Source: a virus | IMG/VR virus record: IMGVR_UViG_3300017963_000554 | Coordinates: 1 to 32,856 of that record | DNA: 32,856 nucleotides | Strand: one strand, 5' to 3' | Shown: positions 18,374 through 32,629 of the stretch, one piece after another | Position numbering within the stretch: the first letter of the stretch is position 1 | How the letters are laid out: each line of letters begins with the position of its first letter | The notes under the pieces: generated by a model | The model's input: the letters and a program-made list of their open reading frames with translations, nothing else | What the model was told of the DNA's origin: nothing | Databases searched by the model: none | Made by a program: the position numbers and the translations under genes

Positions 18374-20533
18374 ATGCTCACTCTCCCGACCAACTTTGTA
18401 GCGGCTTTCGAGCGTGCTGACGTTCGCCCTAGGTTCTGGGTCGAGATAGACAACGGGGTAACGCAATGGACTGCCGTTAGCGGGAGCATGGATCCAGACT
18501 CGGATCTGTATGCCGTGCCCGAGGGTGTTGTATCAGTCTCATCAATCGGCTCAGAGCTCGACCCGCTAACGCGCATTCGGGACGTTTCAGAATGCGTGGT
18601 TACGTTCGAGGACGCCTACCTTCGCCCGATCATCGTAGCCAATCGGTTACGCGGCAAGCGGATTTCGGTCAAGCTGGGCACGGCCGAGCTGAGTCTTGCT
18701 GATTTCGTCGAATACTTTTCGGGCTCAATCGAGGAGCTACAGCCAGATCCGAGCGGCGAGACGATCCAGATTGCCGTGATGGATGTGTTTGCTATCCTCA
18801 AAAACACGACCATCACCCACACCGTCTGGAACAAGCACCCACTGGAACACATCGAAGCGGCGCTAGTCGAATCCGACGTTGCTGCATCCCTCTACGATGC
18901 AACCAGCCTGGACCCGTCGCAGCCAGAGTATGCCACCATTAGTCACTATGTGGTGTCCAAGAATGCCAACTTGAACGAGCCAAACAGCGGCGCAATCGCG
19001 ATCCCGGTGCCGGCGTTCGATATCATTTCGGAGCTTGGGCAGTTGCTGTTTGGTCAGTTGGTGGTGCGTGAGGATGGCAAGTTACGTTTCGTTCTCTACG
19101 ATCCGGCGGCGTCGCCAGTGGCTCATTGGGGAAGCGATCAAATCCTGGCGGATACCTTCCAACAAACAGAGGACCCACTAGACAACCTGATCAATCAAGT
19201 GCAGCTATCATTCTGGCTCGACTTCGATCTAAAGACGGTTAACACGTTGTTTCTGTCCGACACTGCGAGCCAATCGAACTACGCCTATCCCGGCACCACC
19301 GGGCGCGTGGCTACCTGGGAGTATTCAACCAAATGGGTCAACGGCTGGTGTCATTTCATCGGCGACGCTGACGGCCTGATCCAGATCGCAGATACGACCA
19401 TAGAGGCCGAGGGCGGGATCCTGCACCACTTCACCGGCTTCAACCAATGGAACGCCGGCCCGCAGCCGGCATGGGCGCAAGTTGGCCCGACCCGACCCGC
19501 CTATTTACAACTCCGGGATTTCGATCGCCGCAGCCTCAAGGGCCAAGAGACGGTCAAGTGTGAACAGATCAACTTTGGCCCTGACTTCTCACACCTATCG
19601 GTTGAGGACTTGCCTAGCGGTGGCGGAGCTCAATCGTTCAACCCGGACAGGCAGCCGACTAACGCAACGTTTGCCAGTTTGACGCGCGGATTTCTGGCTA
19701 CGCCCCAAGTCTGGGATCGTGACTACTCGGCGATCTGGGATATCACGATCCTATATGACCTTGGTGTTAAGATCCTCGAGCGGTTCGCTGACGGCTTCTA
19801 TCGAGTCGAGCTCGAAACCTCATTCTCCGAATATGCGATTCAAGTCGGGGATGTAATCACCCTGACCTGGCCGCAGTTTGTTGGGTACAATCTCGATGGT
19901 CTAGACTCCTCATTTAAATGGGAAGTGATCGACAAGGAACCCGACGTGTATGCCGATCCGCCGCGCATCAAGTGGACGCTGGCCAGCATAGGCGCGAATA
20001 CGCCAACGGTCGGGGTCGGGACATTTGACAACGGAACGCGATCGGCAAAAGAGGGATTCGGTCAGGCCAACGGAGCGACGTTTACGCCATACGTGCTAGA
20101 CCAATCGGCGGCGTTGAATACTCGGAGCTCGGATTACTCCGTGACGGACTCAGGCGGTTTGACGATCGATGTCACGCCAGGAACGGCATCGGATGGCAGG
20201 GGCGCGATCGAGCTGTTGAACGGCTACACCGGGATTCCCGTCCTCGCCAGCAAAGACAATTACGTGTATGTCGACACCCGCGCCGGAGCGGTCAACATCA
20301 AATCCAAGACACTCGGAGCCGCGCCGCCGGTAACGCAGTTGACCGAGGCCCCGATTGCGAAAGTCGTAACTGATGCAACGTCGATCGTCCATATCGAGGA
20401 CCTGCGAACGTCGGGCAGCTTGAGCGGCACGCGGCTTTCGGATGATTCCGCAGCTACCGGGATCCAGCAAAACGAAACCGGACGCGCCGCCCTCAACCAA
20501 AACTTCAACTTTAGCCAACGGAGCCGGGGCTAA
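18374..20533 (+). CDS. Tail hub/tip protein (baseplate-like, 719 aa)
   Basis: A 719-residue protein, the largest after the tape measure. The N-terminal part (FERADVRPRFWVEI..., VVTFEDAYLRPIIVANRLRGKRISVKLG) and the middle VREDGKLRFVLYD resemble hub-like tail tip proteins of siphophages. The last 150 residues are Gly/Thr/Ser-rich (GGLTIDVTPGTASDGRGAIELL) and end NFSQRSRG, a likely fibre attachment region. It probably caps the tube and anchors the receptor-binding proteins encoded just downstream. No hydrolase motif was recognised. Confidence 0.6.
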   Translation: MLTLPTNFVAAFERADVRPRFWVEIDNGVTQWTAVSGSMDPDSDLYAVPEGVVSVSSIGSELDPLTRIRDVSECVVTFEDAYLRPIIVANRLRGKRISVKLGTAELSLADFVEYFSGSIEELQPDPSGETIQIAVMDVFAILKNTTITHTVWNKHPLEHIEAALVESDVAASLYDATSLDPSQPEYATISHYVVSKNANLNEPNSGAIAIPVPAFDIISELGQLLFGQLVVREDGKLRFVLYDPAASPVAHWGSDQILADTFQQTEDPLDNLINQVQLSFWLDFDLKTVNTLFLSDTASQSNYAYPGTTGRVATWEYSTKWVNGWCHFIGDADGLIQIADTTIEAEGGILHHFTGFNQWNAGPQPAWAQVGPTRPAYLQLRDFDRRSLKGQETVKCEQINFGPDFSHLSVEDLPSGGGAQSFNPDRQPTNATFASLTRGFLATPQVWDRDYSAIWDITILYDLGVKILERFADGFYRVELETSFSEYAIQVGDVITLTWPQFVGYNLDGLDSSFKWEVIDKEPDVYADPPRIKWTLASIGANTPTVGVGTFDNGTRSAKEGFGQANGATFTPYVLDQSAALNTRSSDYSVTDSGGLTIDVTPGTASDGRGAIELLNGYTGIPVLASKDNYVYVDTRAGAVNIKSKTLGAAPPVTQLTEAPIAKVVTDATSIVHIEDLRTSGSLSGTRLSDDSAATGIQQNETGRAALNQNFNFSQRSRG

Positions 20534-28392: not shown

Positions 28393-29417
28393 GCAACGCA
28401 CTAATCAAGAAAACCGCCGACTTCCTACAGCAACCGAAGCAAGTTGATTTCCTGGCTGGCCTCCTGGCATCTACGCCGGAGGAAGCCGCGCGGGTGGTCA
28501 AGACTGCCATTGTGCAGATCATGGCCAACCCGACGCTTGCCAAGTGTGAGCCGCTGTCGGTTTTTCGCGCCGTCGCGCAAGCCGCGCAACTTGGCCTTGA
28601 GCTTGGCCAGGAGGCGCACGTTATCCCCTACGGTGGACAAGCCACCATGCAAGCCGACTATAAGGGGCTGATGCGTCTAGCAGTCGGCAACGGGATCGCC
28701 AAGGTTCGCGGGGATGTCGTTTATGCTGCCGATGGATTCGACTATACGCGCGAGCCGCTATCACTCAAACACAAACCACACCTCGGCGATGATCGCGGGG
28801 ACTTCCGGCTTGCCTATGCTGTCGCGTATGATACCGAGGGCAGGCAGATTGAGGCAACGATCATTCTCGCCAGCGAGCTAGCCAGGCTCCAAAGCAAATC
28901 GAGATCGCCAGCGTGGAAAGAATGGCCCGACCGTATGCGGATCAAGTCAGCGATCAAGCGTTGCTGCAAACATCTCCCGCTAAACACGCGGGCCGCGCGG
29001 CTGATCCGAATCGAGGACAACGCCGACGCTGGTCAATTCGTCGACCCCGAGATTGATGACCTCGGCAAAGTTATCGACGCGCCGAGGCTCGAGGAAGGCA
29101 GTCACCGTATCCGGGACCTCGGAACCGAGGCGGGCGAGCAAACCGAGACCCCTGCGGTCGAGCCCGACCCCGAGATGGATAAGCCAAAGCCAAAGCCGAA
29201 GCGCAGCAGCAACGGCAACGGCAAGCGCAAGTGTTCCGTATGCGGTGAGACGGGCCACAATGCCCGGAGCTGCCCCGAGAAAGACGGCAAGCAAACCGAG
29301 GAAGAGCGGCTAGAGGAAACCCGGCAGGCGGTCAGGGAAGCACAGGCCGAGACGCAGAGCGAGCCGCCGCCTCCTGGCGATAGCGATCGGCCCGGGTGGG
29401 GCTTCGGAAATGGCTGA
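28389..29417 (+). CDS. recT: RecT-like single-strand annealing protein with C-terminal zinc knuckle
   Basis: A 342-residue protein. Residues 1-230 match the RecT/Bet-type annealase family (TLAKCEPLSVFRAVAQAAQLGLELG, AHVIPYGGQATMQADYKGLMRLA, KSAIKRCCKHLPL). The tail is a disordered proline/lysine/glutamate region carrying a CCHC zinc knuckle at C282, C285, H290 and C295 (CSVCGETGHNARSC). It ends in a Gly/Pro-rich stretch, GDSDRPGWGFGNG. The knuckle may strengthen single-strand binding. It is almost the same as the one on the small terminase, which is unusual. Confidence 0.85.
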   Translation: MSNALIKKTADFLQQPKQVDFLAGLLASTPEEAARVVKTAIVQIMANPTLAKCEPLSVFRAVAQAAQLGLELGQEAHVIPYGGQATMQADYKGLMRLAVGNGIAKVRGDVVYAADGFDYTREPLSLKHKPHLGDDRGDFRLAYAVAYDTEGRQIEATIILASELARLQSKSRSPAWKEWPDRMRIKSAIKRCCKHLPLNTRAARLIRIEDNADAGQFVDPEIDDLGKVIDAPRLEEGSHRIRDLGTEAGEQTETPAVEPDPEMDKPKPKPKRSSNGNGKRKCSVCGETGHNARSCPEKDGKQTEEERLEETRQAVREAQAETQSEPPPPGDSDRPGWGFGNG

Positions 29418-30231
29418 GACTGGCGACGTTTGGGTCAGTCCGTGCGGGCGCATGAAACTGTACTGCGGGCGTTGGCAGGATGTGTTGTCCGATGTGTCTG
29501 AGTGCGATGCGGTGATCACGGATCCGCCGTATTCGCCAAAATCTCATAGCGGATTCAGGAGCGCCGACGACTACCAGGCACACTATCGACAGAATCTAAA
29601 CGGCCGACGCACACAATGGGGAAAGGATGGGCAAAAGCGCCACGGCGGTGCGTCGTATGGCGGCATCCCGTATTCGCCGATCGATCGCCATCAGGCGATG
29701 GAGTTGGCCGGGATGTACTTGCCGTTGTGGTGGGTGATATTCGGCGATCACATCTCATTCGGAATCTGGGAACACGCGTTGCGCACATACGACTGGTATA
29801 CCTTTGCGCCGGTTGTCTGGTGGCGCACTGGTGGGACCCCTCGTTTTCAGGGAGACGGCCCAGCGTCTGCTGTTGAGCAGATCCTAATTGCGCGAGTCAA
29901 AACGCAAACCAAGTGCGGTAGCCTACCTGGGATCTACGTTCACCCTCAGGTCAAGGGCAATGCGGCAGAGAAAGTGTTGAAGGGGCAGAAGCCAGTACCG
30001 CTGATGCAGGAGATCATTCGCGACTACTCCCGCCCAGGCGACCTAATCGTAGATCCATACGCCGGCAGCGGCACCACCCTCCTAGCCGCCGCGATCGAGG
30101 GACGCAGAGAAATCGGCGCCGAGATGGATCCCAATACATTCGAGCTTGCGGTCAAGCGGTTGAGCAAGGGCTACACCCCGCGATTGCAGTTGCCAGATCG
30201 GCCTAAACCAAAGCAAGGGGATTTGCTATGA
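29410..30231 (+). CDS. Beta-class DNA methyltransferase (N6-adenine or N4-cytosine)
   Basis: A 273-residue enzyme with catalytic DPPYS (38-42) before the S-adenosylmethionine site DPYAGSGTT (215-223), the beta-class order. It would methylate an exocyclic amino group (N6-adenine or N4-cytosine) in a short DNA site; the specificity cannot be read. No restriction partner is present, so it is probably an orphan that protects phage DNA or marks it for regulation. It overlaps the RecT-like gene by eight bases. Confidence 0.85.
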   Translation: MAETGDVWVSPCGRMKLYCGRWQDVLSDVSECDAVITDPPYSPKSHSGFRSADDYQAHYRQNLNGRRTQWGKDGQKRHGGASYGGIPYSPIDRHQAMELAGMYLPLWWVIFGDHISFGIWEHALRTYDWYTFAPVVWWRTGGTPRFQGDGPASAVEQILIARVKTQTKCGSLPGIYVHPQVKGNAAEKVLKGQKPVPLMQEIIRDYSRPGDLIVDPYAGSGTTLLAAAIEGRREIGAEMDPNTFELAVKRLSKGYTPRLQLPDRPKPKQGDLL

Positions 30232-30593: not shown

Positions 30594-30608
30594 GCCCGGA
30601 GGTCCGAT

Positions 30609-31376
30609 GTGTCGTGGGCGCGGATAGATGATCAGGCGTGGCACCACCCGAAATTTGAGGCGCTACAATCCGAGGGCCTCGAGGGCATGGCCGCGATCGG
30701 CCTATGGGCAATGGCAATATCCTTTACTGGACAAAAACAAGAGCCTCGAATCACGTTGAATCAGGCCGCCATGCTTTGCGGCGGGGACAAAGATCTTGCT
30801 TCAATCTGCTTCGATTTGCTTCGAAGCAGAGGGTTGATTGATAGTGATTCTGCTTCGAAGCAGACAGTCATACACGACTGGTCGGAGTACCGAAGCAAAC
30901 GCGAAGCAAAGGTTAATGCCGGAAGGAAGGGCGGCATAAAGTCTGGGGAATCCAGGCGAAGCAAAGGCGAAGCAAGCCCGGAACCAACTAAGCGTTCTGC
31001 TTCGAAGCAAACCCGAAGCCCCGATCCCGATCCCGTACCCGATCCCGTACCCGATCCCGTTCCTAAAGAAGAAGAAGAAGAAGAAGCGATCGAGGTTATT
31101 GGCTGTTCCGGCGGCGAGCGTTTCGTTGTCACCCGTCCGATGGTTGATAATTGGGCCGGCGCTTTTCCGGGTGTCGATGTTTTGGCCGAAATCAAAAAGG
31201 CCAAAGTTTGGCTTGCCGATAATCCGACAAAAGCGAAAACCAGGCGAGGGATGCGCCGTTTTTTGGGTGGGTGGATGTCTAGGCAGCAAGATAAGCCGAA
31301 GCCGAAAAGGGCAGATTCAAAAAGAATCGAAACCGGCAGCTTGCCATTAGGGCCAGACGTTAGCCGGCAGCTCTGA
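30609..31376 (+). CDS. Replication initiator protein (lambda O-like role)
   Basis: The GTG at 30609 is chosen because GGAGG (30598-30602) lies six bases upstream and the protein then begins MSWARIDDQAWHHPKFEALQ, the usual opening of phage replication proteins. The N-terminal 100 residues look like a winged helix (LWAMAISFTG, LNQAAMLCG, SKQTVIHDWSEYRSKREAK). A basic linker, a DPVP repeat and a poly-glutamate run follow. The C-terminal FPGVDVLAEIKKAKVWLADNP...MRRFLGGWMSRQ domain resembles helicase-loading ends. The gene contains an array of GCTTC/GAAGC repeats, so it probably binds its own origin. The DnaB-type helicase gene follows after 11 bases. Confidence 0.75.
   Translation: MSWARIDDQAWHHPKFEALQSEGLEGMAAIGLWAMAISFTGQKQEPRITLNQAAMLCGGDKDLASICFDLLRSRGLIDSDSASKQTVIHDWSEYRSKREAKVNAGRKGGIKSGESRRSKGEASPEPTKRSASKQTRSPDPDPVPDPVPDPVPKEEEEEEAIEVIGCSGGERFVVTRPMVDNWAGAFPGVDVLAEIKKAKVWLADNPTKAKTRRGMRRFLGGWMSRQQDKPKPKRADSKRIETGSLPLGPDVSRQL
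30797..31020. repeat. Iteron-like array of GCTTC/GAAGC repeats (candidate origin)
   Basis: Thirteen GCTTC or GAAGC cores lie within 222 bases. Three form the perfect palindrome GCTTCGAAGC (30818-30827, 30852-30861, 30999-31008). Others are direct repeats one helical turn apart: starts 30798, 30808 and 30818 (10 bases), 30892 and 30903, 30958 and 30969, 31004 and 31015 (11 bases each). Many are followed by AAA or AGA. Regular spacing of this kind is typical of initiator-binding iterons. Part of the pattern could reflect repeated SK/EA codons. Confidence 0.75.
31022..31087 (+). repeat. Tandem GATCCCGTACCC repeat and purine tract beside the iterons
   Basis: From 31022 to about 31060 a 12-base unit (GATCCCGTACCC, encoding DPVP) repeats about three times. 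A pure purine run made of GAA/AAG triplets (about 31066-31087) follows. In lambda the origin in gene O also has iterons next to an asymmetric purine-rich, easily melted stretch. Here the purine run could be the unwinding region. Confidence 0.6.
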
Positions 31377-31387
31377 AAGGGGGAGTT

Positions 31388-32629
31388 ATGGATTCTTTCG
31401 ATCGAATGCTCGAGGAAGCCGTGATCGGCGGCACGCTGCTGGCGGACAAGCTACCGCCCGAAGTGTTGCTGGTTGAGCCGGAGTATTTCACCGGGCGCGG
31501 TCATGGGGAGATTTGGACCGCCATAGCCGATTTATTGCAGCAGGGATCCGATGTGGATGAGGTGACGGTTAGCAAGGCAATCGGCAAGCCGGGATTGTTC
31601 GTCTACCTCAATCGCCTAGCGGAAGATTGCCCTACATCGCAAAACCTCGGCGCGTGGTGCAAACGGCTAATTGATTTCGGCAGCAAGCGGCTTGCCGATA
31701 ACCAGATCCGCCAGGTCATGCTTGACGGCGGGGATCCTGCCGATCTCGCACAAAGGGTCGATCAAATCGCGCGGCAATATCGAAAAGACAAGGCAGATGG
31801 TCTGCGCCACGTATCCGGGCCGCTCAAGGAATTGGTGCGGAAATTAGAGGCAGAGCAAAAAGGGGAAGCCGGAATGATTGCGGCTAAGACTGGATTACAA
31901 GCCGTCGATCAATGCGTCCGAATGGAGCCGCACGGGCTGACGATAATTGCCGCCAGGCCAGGCATGGGTAAGACCGCCTTTGCCGGCAATATCGTCTCAG
32001 AGTGCGCGGCCCGCAAAGATGGCGCGGTTGTTCTTTTCTCGCTTGAGATGGATGCAGTTGCGATAGTGCGCCGGATGGTTGCCGGGGCTGCCGGATTGCC
32101 GACCGATAAGCTAATGAGCAATCCGGCCAAGCTGGCTCATGCTATGAATCAGATCCACGGGCTCGACTTCTACGTTGACGATCGCCCTGGGTTGTCAACG
32201 GCAGACATCCGATCGGCTCTTTCTCGCATGGGCAAGATCAGCCTTGTGCTTGTTGATTACATCCAACTAGCCAAAATGGACCAGAAGATCGAACGGCACG
32301 ATCTGCGGGTCGGGCAAATCACGAAGGACCTAAAGGCGATTGCTAAGCATTACAACTGTCACGTGATCGCGCTGTCGCAGCTCAACCGATCTGTGGAGCA
32401 GAACAATCCGCCGATCCCTCGCCTAAGCAATCTGCGCGACTCCGGCAACCTCGAGGAAGACGCGGATATTGTGTTGATGCTTTATCGACCAGGCTATTAC
32501 GACGCCGACGCTGGCGATGAGGCCAGCGTTTACATCCCGAAGAATCGCAACGGGCCGACCGGCGAGGCAAAAGTTTTCTGGGATGCCAAGCGGCAGCGGT
32601 TCCATGATGTGGAGAGGTGGCGCCAATGA
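31388..32629 (+). CDS. dnaB: DnaB-type replicative helicase
   Basis: A 413-residue protein with DnaB features: an N-terminal helical domain (EEAVIGGTLLADKLPPEVLL, EYFTGRGHGEIWTAI), Walker A AARPGMGKT (188-196), Walker B LVLVDYIQL (286-294), and ALSQLNRSVE and SNLRDSGNLEEDADIVLML in the C-terminal RecA-like domain. It unwinds the fork 5' to 3' as a hexameric ring. GAAAGGGGGA lies just before the ATG. Together with the initiator upstream it gives the phage its own origin recognition and helicase; polymerase would come from the host. Confidence 0.93.
   Translation: MDSFDRMLEEAVIGGTLLADKLPPEVLLVEPEYFTGRGHGEIWTAIADLLQQGSDVDEVTVSKAIGKPGLFVYLNRLAEDCPTSQNLGAWCKRLIDFGSKRLADNQIRQVMLDGGDPADLAQRVDQIARQYRKDKADGLRHVSGPLKELVRKLEAEQKGEAGMIAAKTGLQAVDQCVRMEPHGLTIIAARPGMGKTAFAGNIVSECAARKDGAVVLFSLEMDAVAIVRRMVAGAAGLPTDKLMSNPAKLAHAMNQIHGLDFYVDDRPGLSTADIRSALSRMGKISLVLVDYIQLAKMDQKIERHDLRVGQITKDLKAIAKHYNCHVIALSQLNRSVEQNNPPIPRLSNLRDSGNLEEDADIVLMLYRPGYYDADAGDEASVYIPKNRNGPTGEAKVFWDAKRQRFHDVERWRQ

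Follow-up and report, generated by a model that had tools for sequence, protein, structure and literature searches.

Does the array of short repeats in the middle of the replication initiator gene of this phage serve as its origin of replication? Origins inside initiator genes have long been known. The DNA analyzed, here called the window, was the entire IMG/VR virus record IMGVR_UViG_3300017963_000554 (32,856 bases), and a search of the record for a terminal repeat found none. The initiator, its gene neighbourhood, the repeats and their recurrence in other viruses were analyzed, and the features are collected in Table 1.

Table 1. Coordinates of the initiator locus in the window
Feature	Position	Strand or orientation	Remarks
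Replication initiator gene	30609..31376	+	phrog_2447 match; alignment with W-x-K-V-D-D family
Iteron array	30798..31019	both orientations	13 GCTTC/GAAGC cores, consensus (T/C)TGCTTCG; codons 64-137
Palindrome 1, GCTTCGAAGC	30818..30827		exact
Palindrome 2, GCTTCGAAGC	30852..30861		exact
Palindrome 3, GCTTCGAAGC	30999..31008		exact
Second block	31020..31063	+	six-base tandem CCCGAT/CCCGTA, coding PDPDPVPDPVPDPVP; directly after array
Purine tract	31065..31086	+	(AAG)7; codes for glutamate run
DnaB-type replicative helicase gene	31388..32629	+	PF03796 E 1e-66, phrog_19 E 4e-89; next after initiator

The initiator gene and its neighbourhood

The record carries a tailed-phage gene set comprising terminase, portal, head morphogenesis, major head protein and tape measure genes. 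The structural genes are followed by exonuclease, RecT, a DNA methyltransferase (29410-30231, just upstream of the initiator gene), the initiator and the DnaB helicase. All major annotated genes point in one direction, and GC skew was therefore of no help in placing the origin. A search against Rfam gave no match. ARAGORN called a tRNA-Arg at 19403-19502 on the minus strand, within and antisense to a long ORF (18374-20533), which is probably a false call.

The original prediction that the gene encodes an initiator agreed with the profile searches. The gene starts with GTG, has a ribosome site GGAGG at 30598-30602 and belongs by profile match to phrog_2447, 'replication initiation protein' (E 1.1e-13, residues 38-273 of the longer ORF), and the DnaB gene lies next to it. 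On these matches the gene is a replication initiator. An AlphaFold2 model built from 26 window and contig sequences had a mean pLDDT of 83 and placed a winged helix at about residues 1-90, a helix at 91-122 and a C-terminal domain at 160-228. The linker between them (residues 123-159) was modelled with low confidence and predicted to be disordered. Among viral models, the Foldseek neighbours included 'replisome organiser', 'Replication initiation and membrane attachment', Lin1244-like, DUF1376 and DUF6291 proteins, while the comparison with the PDB returned only generic winged helices without significance. Pfam matches among the relatives of the initiator were Phage_rep_org_N in one and DnaT, a DNA-binding domain, in one. 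Membership of RepA_N was rejected, as the Pfam search of the initiator gave no RepA_N (PF06970) match.

The core array is selected at the DNA level

Thirteen GCTTC/GAAGC cores within the initiator coding sequence, as originally predicted, were located at 30798, 30808, 30818, 30823, 30852, 30857, 30892, 30903, 30958, 30969, 30999, 31004 and 31015. The three palindromes expected among them are exact copies of GCTTCGAAGC, and they are unique in the record even when one mismatch is allowed. The predicted spacing of 10-11 bases applied to only five or six of the gaps (10, 10, 11, 11, 11); the others measured 5, 29-35 and 55 bases, those of 5 bases being the gaps within palindromes. The cores occupy codon phases 0, 1 and 2 and are read as A-S, C-F, L-L-R, E-A, K-Q and R-S-K. 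Part of the array falls within codons of the folded domain (LASICFDLLRS), the first cores being in winged-helix codons.

The number of cores far exceeded what the protein sequence requires. With the protein fixed and codons drawn according to phage codon usage, GCTTCG/CGAAGC occurred 3.1 times on average and at most 10 times in 20,000 redraws, compared with 13 observed. When the synonymous codons of the gene itself were shuffled, the mean was 2.1 and the maximum 8. Under codon-preserving nulls, about one YTGCTTCG and about 0.05 GCTTCGAAGC palindromes were expected in the gene, versus 11 and three found. Elsewhere in the 32.9 kb, GCTTCG reached no more than two copies per 230-bp window, and the most frequent of all hexamers reached six. 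The initiator coding sequence thus contains repeated sites of the size bound by initiators, selected at the DNA level, as in origins of the lambda kind.

The cores were also predicted to be followed by a 12-base tandem repeat and a purine tract. Both were located, the former (CCCGATCCCGTA) at 31026-31060 within the six-base array of the second block. The second block is GC-rich, the lowest GC content per 60 bp was 42%, and no strongly AT-rich stretch was found adjacent to the array that would correspond to the unwinding region of origins of the lambda kind. The purine tract is possibly an easily melted stretch.

The GCTTCG dimer in other initiator genes

Close relatives of the initiator or the helicase were not found in genome contigs, nor were close relatives of the helicase in viral contigs. 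The only sequence relatives of the initiator found by search were two sequences at 32% identity (L002 and L003), and the core array is absent from both. Since the collections held no close relative of the initiator, the search was done with the motif instead. The search word was the 11-bp dimer CGAAGCAAANNCGAAGCAAA and the control a scrambled pattern. The palindrome alone (TCTGCTTCGAAGCARA, 18 loci) was dropped as a search word, as its loci were mostly background with few extra cores.

The dimer matched 77 viral contigs and the scrambled control 22. ORFs matching initiator N-terminal profiles contained 60 of the 77 dimer loci versus one of the 22 control loci; some of the seed sequences for these profiles came from these very loci, with the motif excluded, and in one seed (L051) the insertion carrying the motif was removed by hand. 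Extra cores within 250 bp were also more frequent around the dimer (mean 3.6 vs 1.0 in the control). Three types of initiator carried it, namely the winged-helix type of the window, a DUF6291-like type (phrog_15768) and a DUF1376-like type (phrog_4118/9327, 'primosomal protein'). Profile comparison of the three N-terminal types found no relationship (17% and 4% probability).

All 60 copies in initiator genes lay on the coding strand. After dereplication, the three frames were used 17/6/2 times in the winged-helix type, 0/1/10 times in the DUF6291-like type and 4/1/0 times in the DUF1376-like type. Because the strand is always the coding one and all three frames are used, the linker words RSKxEAK (or RSKxEAN), KQxRSK and EAKxKQ represent one DNA repeat. 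Third codon positions varied less inside the cores than outside in the L008 family (2/13 vs 86/224) and the L022 family (6/36 vs 87/337), and did not differ in the L010 family (2/6 vs 70/206), the members of each family having been chosen for one core pair. The constancy in the first two families may lend slight support to conservation at the DNA level.

In GTDB genomes the dimer was found at 59 loci, of which 12 were initiator genes and the remainder near background. The 12 were from Kibdelosporangium, Bifidobacterium, Cutibacterium, an Armatimonadetes MAG, Clostridia, Bacteroidales, Kiritimatiellae and Rickettsiales, and the hosts of integrated copies include Actinomycetota, Clostridia, Bacteroidales, Kiritimatiellae and Armatimonadetes. 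Annotated phages and plasmids yielded one record, itself unannotated.

Several other arrangements of the word were observed. In a DUF6291-like gene from Clostridia (L110, 3361-3512, and L194), GCTTCG is repeated about 16 times in near-perfect tandem, which is likely a recent iteron expansion. In L051 (8801-9730), an insertion coding KIEANDEATSQANGEANAKQLAS, in which the same word is abundant, lies inside the winged-helix domain of the initiator, as do the first cores of the window. The dimer CGAAGCAAA, coding RSKSEANPKQIRSK, was also present in another kind of gene on archaeal and WOR-3 contigs (L101, L103, L106, L118, L149, L152 and L157; ANME-1, Thermoplasmata, Woesearchaeota and WOR-3), which we take to resemble AlbA_2/HATPase_c_4 regulators.

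Relatives chosen without the motif and the CCCGA block

An N-terminal consensus lacking the linker was used as the query for actinophage relatives. It matched 516 actinophage records, of which 18 were fetched, and ten of these had CCCGA repeated in tandem in the linker, with 3-6 copies spaced at 5-6 bp. GCTTCG iterons and (CCCGA)n occurred together in two relatives selected by the motif (L004 and L008). The 15-mer CCCGACCCGACCCGA, an exact (CCCGA)3, was present in 11 of 13 whole records tested, and in all 11 it was confined to the coding strand of the initiator gene; its reversed controls were absent from the whole records. Among the matches listed for CCCGACCCGACCCGACCC in viral contigs, 40 of the 80 loci examined belonged to the initiator family of the window. 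Reading frame was rejected as evidence for (CCCGA)n, as the same cyclic peptide PDPTR results in any frame; the DNA-level case rests on exact codon choice and confinement to the gene. The CCCGAT/CCCGTA block of the window corresponds to the (CCCGA)n runs in the initiator genes of its relatives.

Just upstream of the CCCGA block, clade-specific repeats were found, including GCGTGAC/GTCACGC, GCGTTAC/GTAACGC, GTGGACA/TGTCCAC, CGGGACA, CGAACG, GATAACAAA and GATGGCAAA. Repeated or inverted 7-mers in this position exceeded the codon-preserving null (p<0.05) in 28 of 38 genes. The layout of iterons followed by a short tandem block is kept in relatives while the iteron word changes by clade. A gene for DnaB or a helicase loader lies downstream in several relatives. 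GCTTCG was absent from most of the Actinobacteria and Clostridia prophage relatives picked without the motif, and it is therefore not universal even within the family. Other repeats were observed in or near the matched stretch of such prophages, namely a GATACT tandem (L203), AACCAACA (L201/L190) and AAGCAAA with AATGTAAA (L192).

A perfect hairpin with a stem of 7-10 bp and a loop that is often TAAC, TGAC or TAA directly follows CCCGA in some relatives, among them L004, L274, L286, L294, L232, L254, L239 and L220. It was found in 13 of 44 initiator genes versus 1.4% of random 60-mers from the same loci, and was looked for in the window without being found there. It is possibly a primase or helicase loading site.

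Comparison with known origins

The origin of lambda lies in gene O, where four iterons, each an 18-bp hyphenated inverted repeat, occur with an AT-rich region (PMC6022878). The parallel to lambda drawn in the original prediction holds for the intragenic plan, but the contrast it made between the iterons was overstated, as those of lambda also have inverted symmetry. Both proteins combine an N-terminal DNA-binding domain, a linker coded by the origin and a C-terminal partner domain (origin, linker and domains being predicted in the window), and in both genomes a helicase-handling gene is directly downstream. However, the AT-rich region of lambda spans 39 bp and its iterons number only four, whereas in the window 13 short GCTTCG half-sites are followed by repeats of six bases, which are GC-rich, and by a purine tract. 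The gene that comes next encodes a loader in lambda and DnaB itself in the window.

In pSK41 the Rep boxes are central in rep, the N-terminal part is a winged helix, and ori codes for a central domain that acts as a linker and can be dispensed with (PMC5703833). The window resembles this RepA_N system in its central boxes, predicted N-terminal winged helix and putative ori-coded linker; however, the box sequence differs and the protein of the window has no RepA_N Pfam match. Actinophage initiators of the phrog_2447 type share with the window the N-terminal family, the gene position and intragenic iterons followed by (CCCGA)n, whereas their iteron word varies by clade and their tandem unit is five-base instead of six-base. 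For other mycobacteriophage RepA genes, an origin has been suspected within the gene or a short way upstream, and no repeats were reported from the regions examined (PMC7157519).

Alternative explanations

The cores could instead be operators through which the initiator or a repressor controls its own operon, with replication starting elsewhere. Short-palindrome arrays would suit repressors too, and Foldseek gave a weak resemblance (E above 0.04) of the winged helix to MarR/CRP-like regulators. However, the array occupies about base pairs 200-400 of the gene, a search of the region for a promoter-like site found none, and the array recurs at the same place in the initiator genes of unrelated phages, beside a second repeat block; we consider operators unlikely. 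That methylation or partition explains the array, as a target of the upstream methyltransferase or a parS-like site, appears the least credible proposal. The methyltransferase gene does adjoin, as it does in several actinophage relatives, and TTCGAA is palindromic, but among the window genes tested no match was named a partition protein, the array is inside the initiator gene and not beside a par operon, and other clades have different iterons in the same place.

The repeats might also matter at the protein level, as a basic low-complexity linker (RSK, EAK, KQ) providing charge or flexibility, the DNA repeat having arisen by slippage. This would fit the predicted disorder of the linker, and 11-bp repeats of the word are free of stops in all frames and could spread in this way (L110, L142). 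It is nevertheless very improbable, given that the cores of the window occupy all three phases and extend into codons of the folded domain, that the codon-preserving nulls were rejected, and that the frame in which this DNA is read differs between phages.

An origin of theta type embedded in the gene of its own initiator, of the lambda/RepA_N kind, is in our judgement the probable reading of the array. DNA-level selection of the motif, its recurrence in the initiator genes of unrelated phages, the two-block layout in relatives and the similar plan of the lambda and pSK41 origins point to it, origin activity being inferred by analogy. Against it count the lack of a strongly AT-rich stretch, the missing array in L002 and L003, and the rarity of GCTTCG in prophage relatives picked without the motif.

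Proposed mechanism and significance

In the proposed mechanism, the N-terminal winged helix would bind the GCTTCG half-sites. The spacing of copies by about one helical turn, combined with the palindromes, would enable multiple initiators to assemble on the DNA and bend it. The CCCGAT/CCCGTA block and the purine tract may be the site of strand opening; alternatively, the C-terminal domain of the initiator may meet single strands there and hand over DnaB. The DnaB to be loaded would be the product of the next gene. The recurrence of the GC-rich block in relatives suggests that it has a specific role, perhaps contact with the initiator C-terminal domain. The DNA need would override the protein need in the linker, so that peptides such as RSKREAK would be readings of the iteron.

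A broader reading seems to us about evenly balanced. GCTTCG/CGAAGCAAA would serve as an origin iteron in a wide range of phages, shared by three or more initiator families without detectable sequence relationship and by phages of several host phyla. It would form with a CCCGA-type five- or six-base block a two-part linker origin module, with the low-complexity peptides RSK-EAK-KQ and PDPTR marking phage origins in databases. No description of a shared GCTTCG iteron or CCCGA block was found in the non-subscription literature searched, and both the iteron common to several families and the pentamer/hexamer block look new.

It is uncommon for the origin of a phage to be located, and most initiators of this superfamily bear the annotation hypothetical. 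A word that recurs in all frames of initiator genes at the DNA level would offer a direct route to both origin and initiator in thousands of uncultured phages, and a shared word allows comparison of iteron/initiator pairs across clades. The locus would also show clearly how a DNA site can dictate the sequence of a protein linker, and (CCCGA)n raises the question of what role a GC-rich repeat beside iterons may have in opening or helicase loading.
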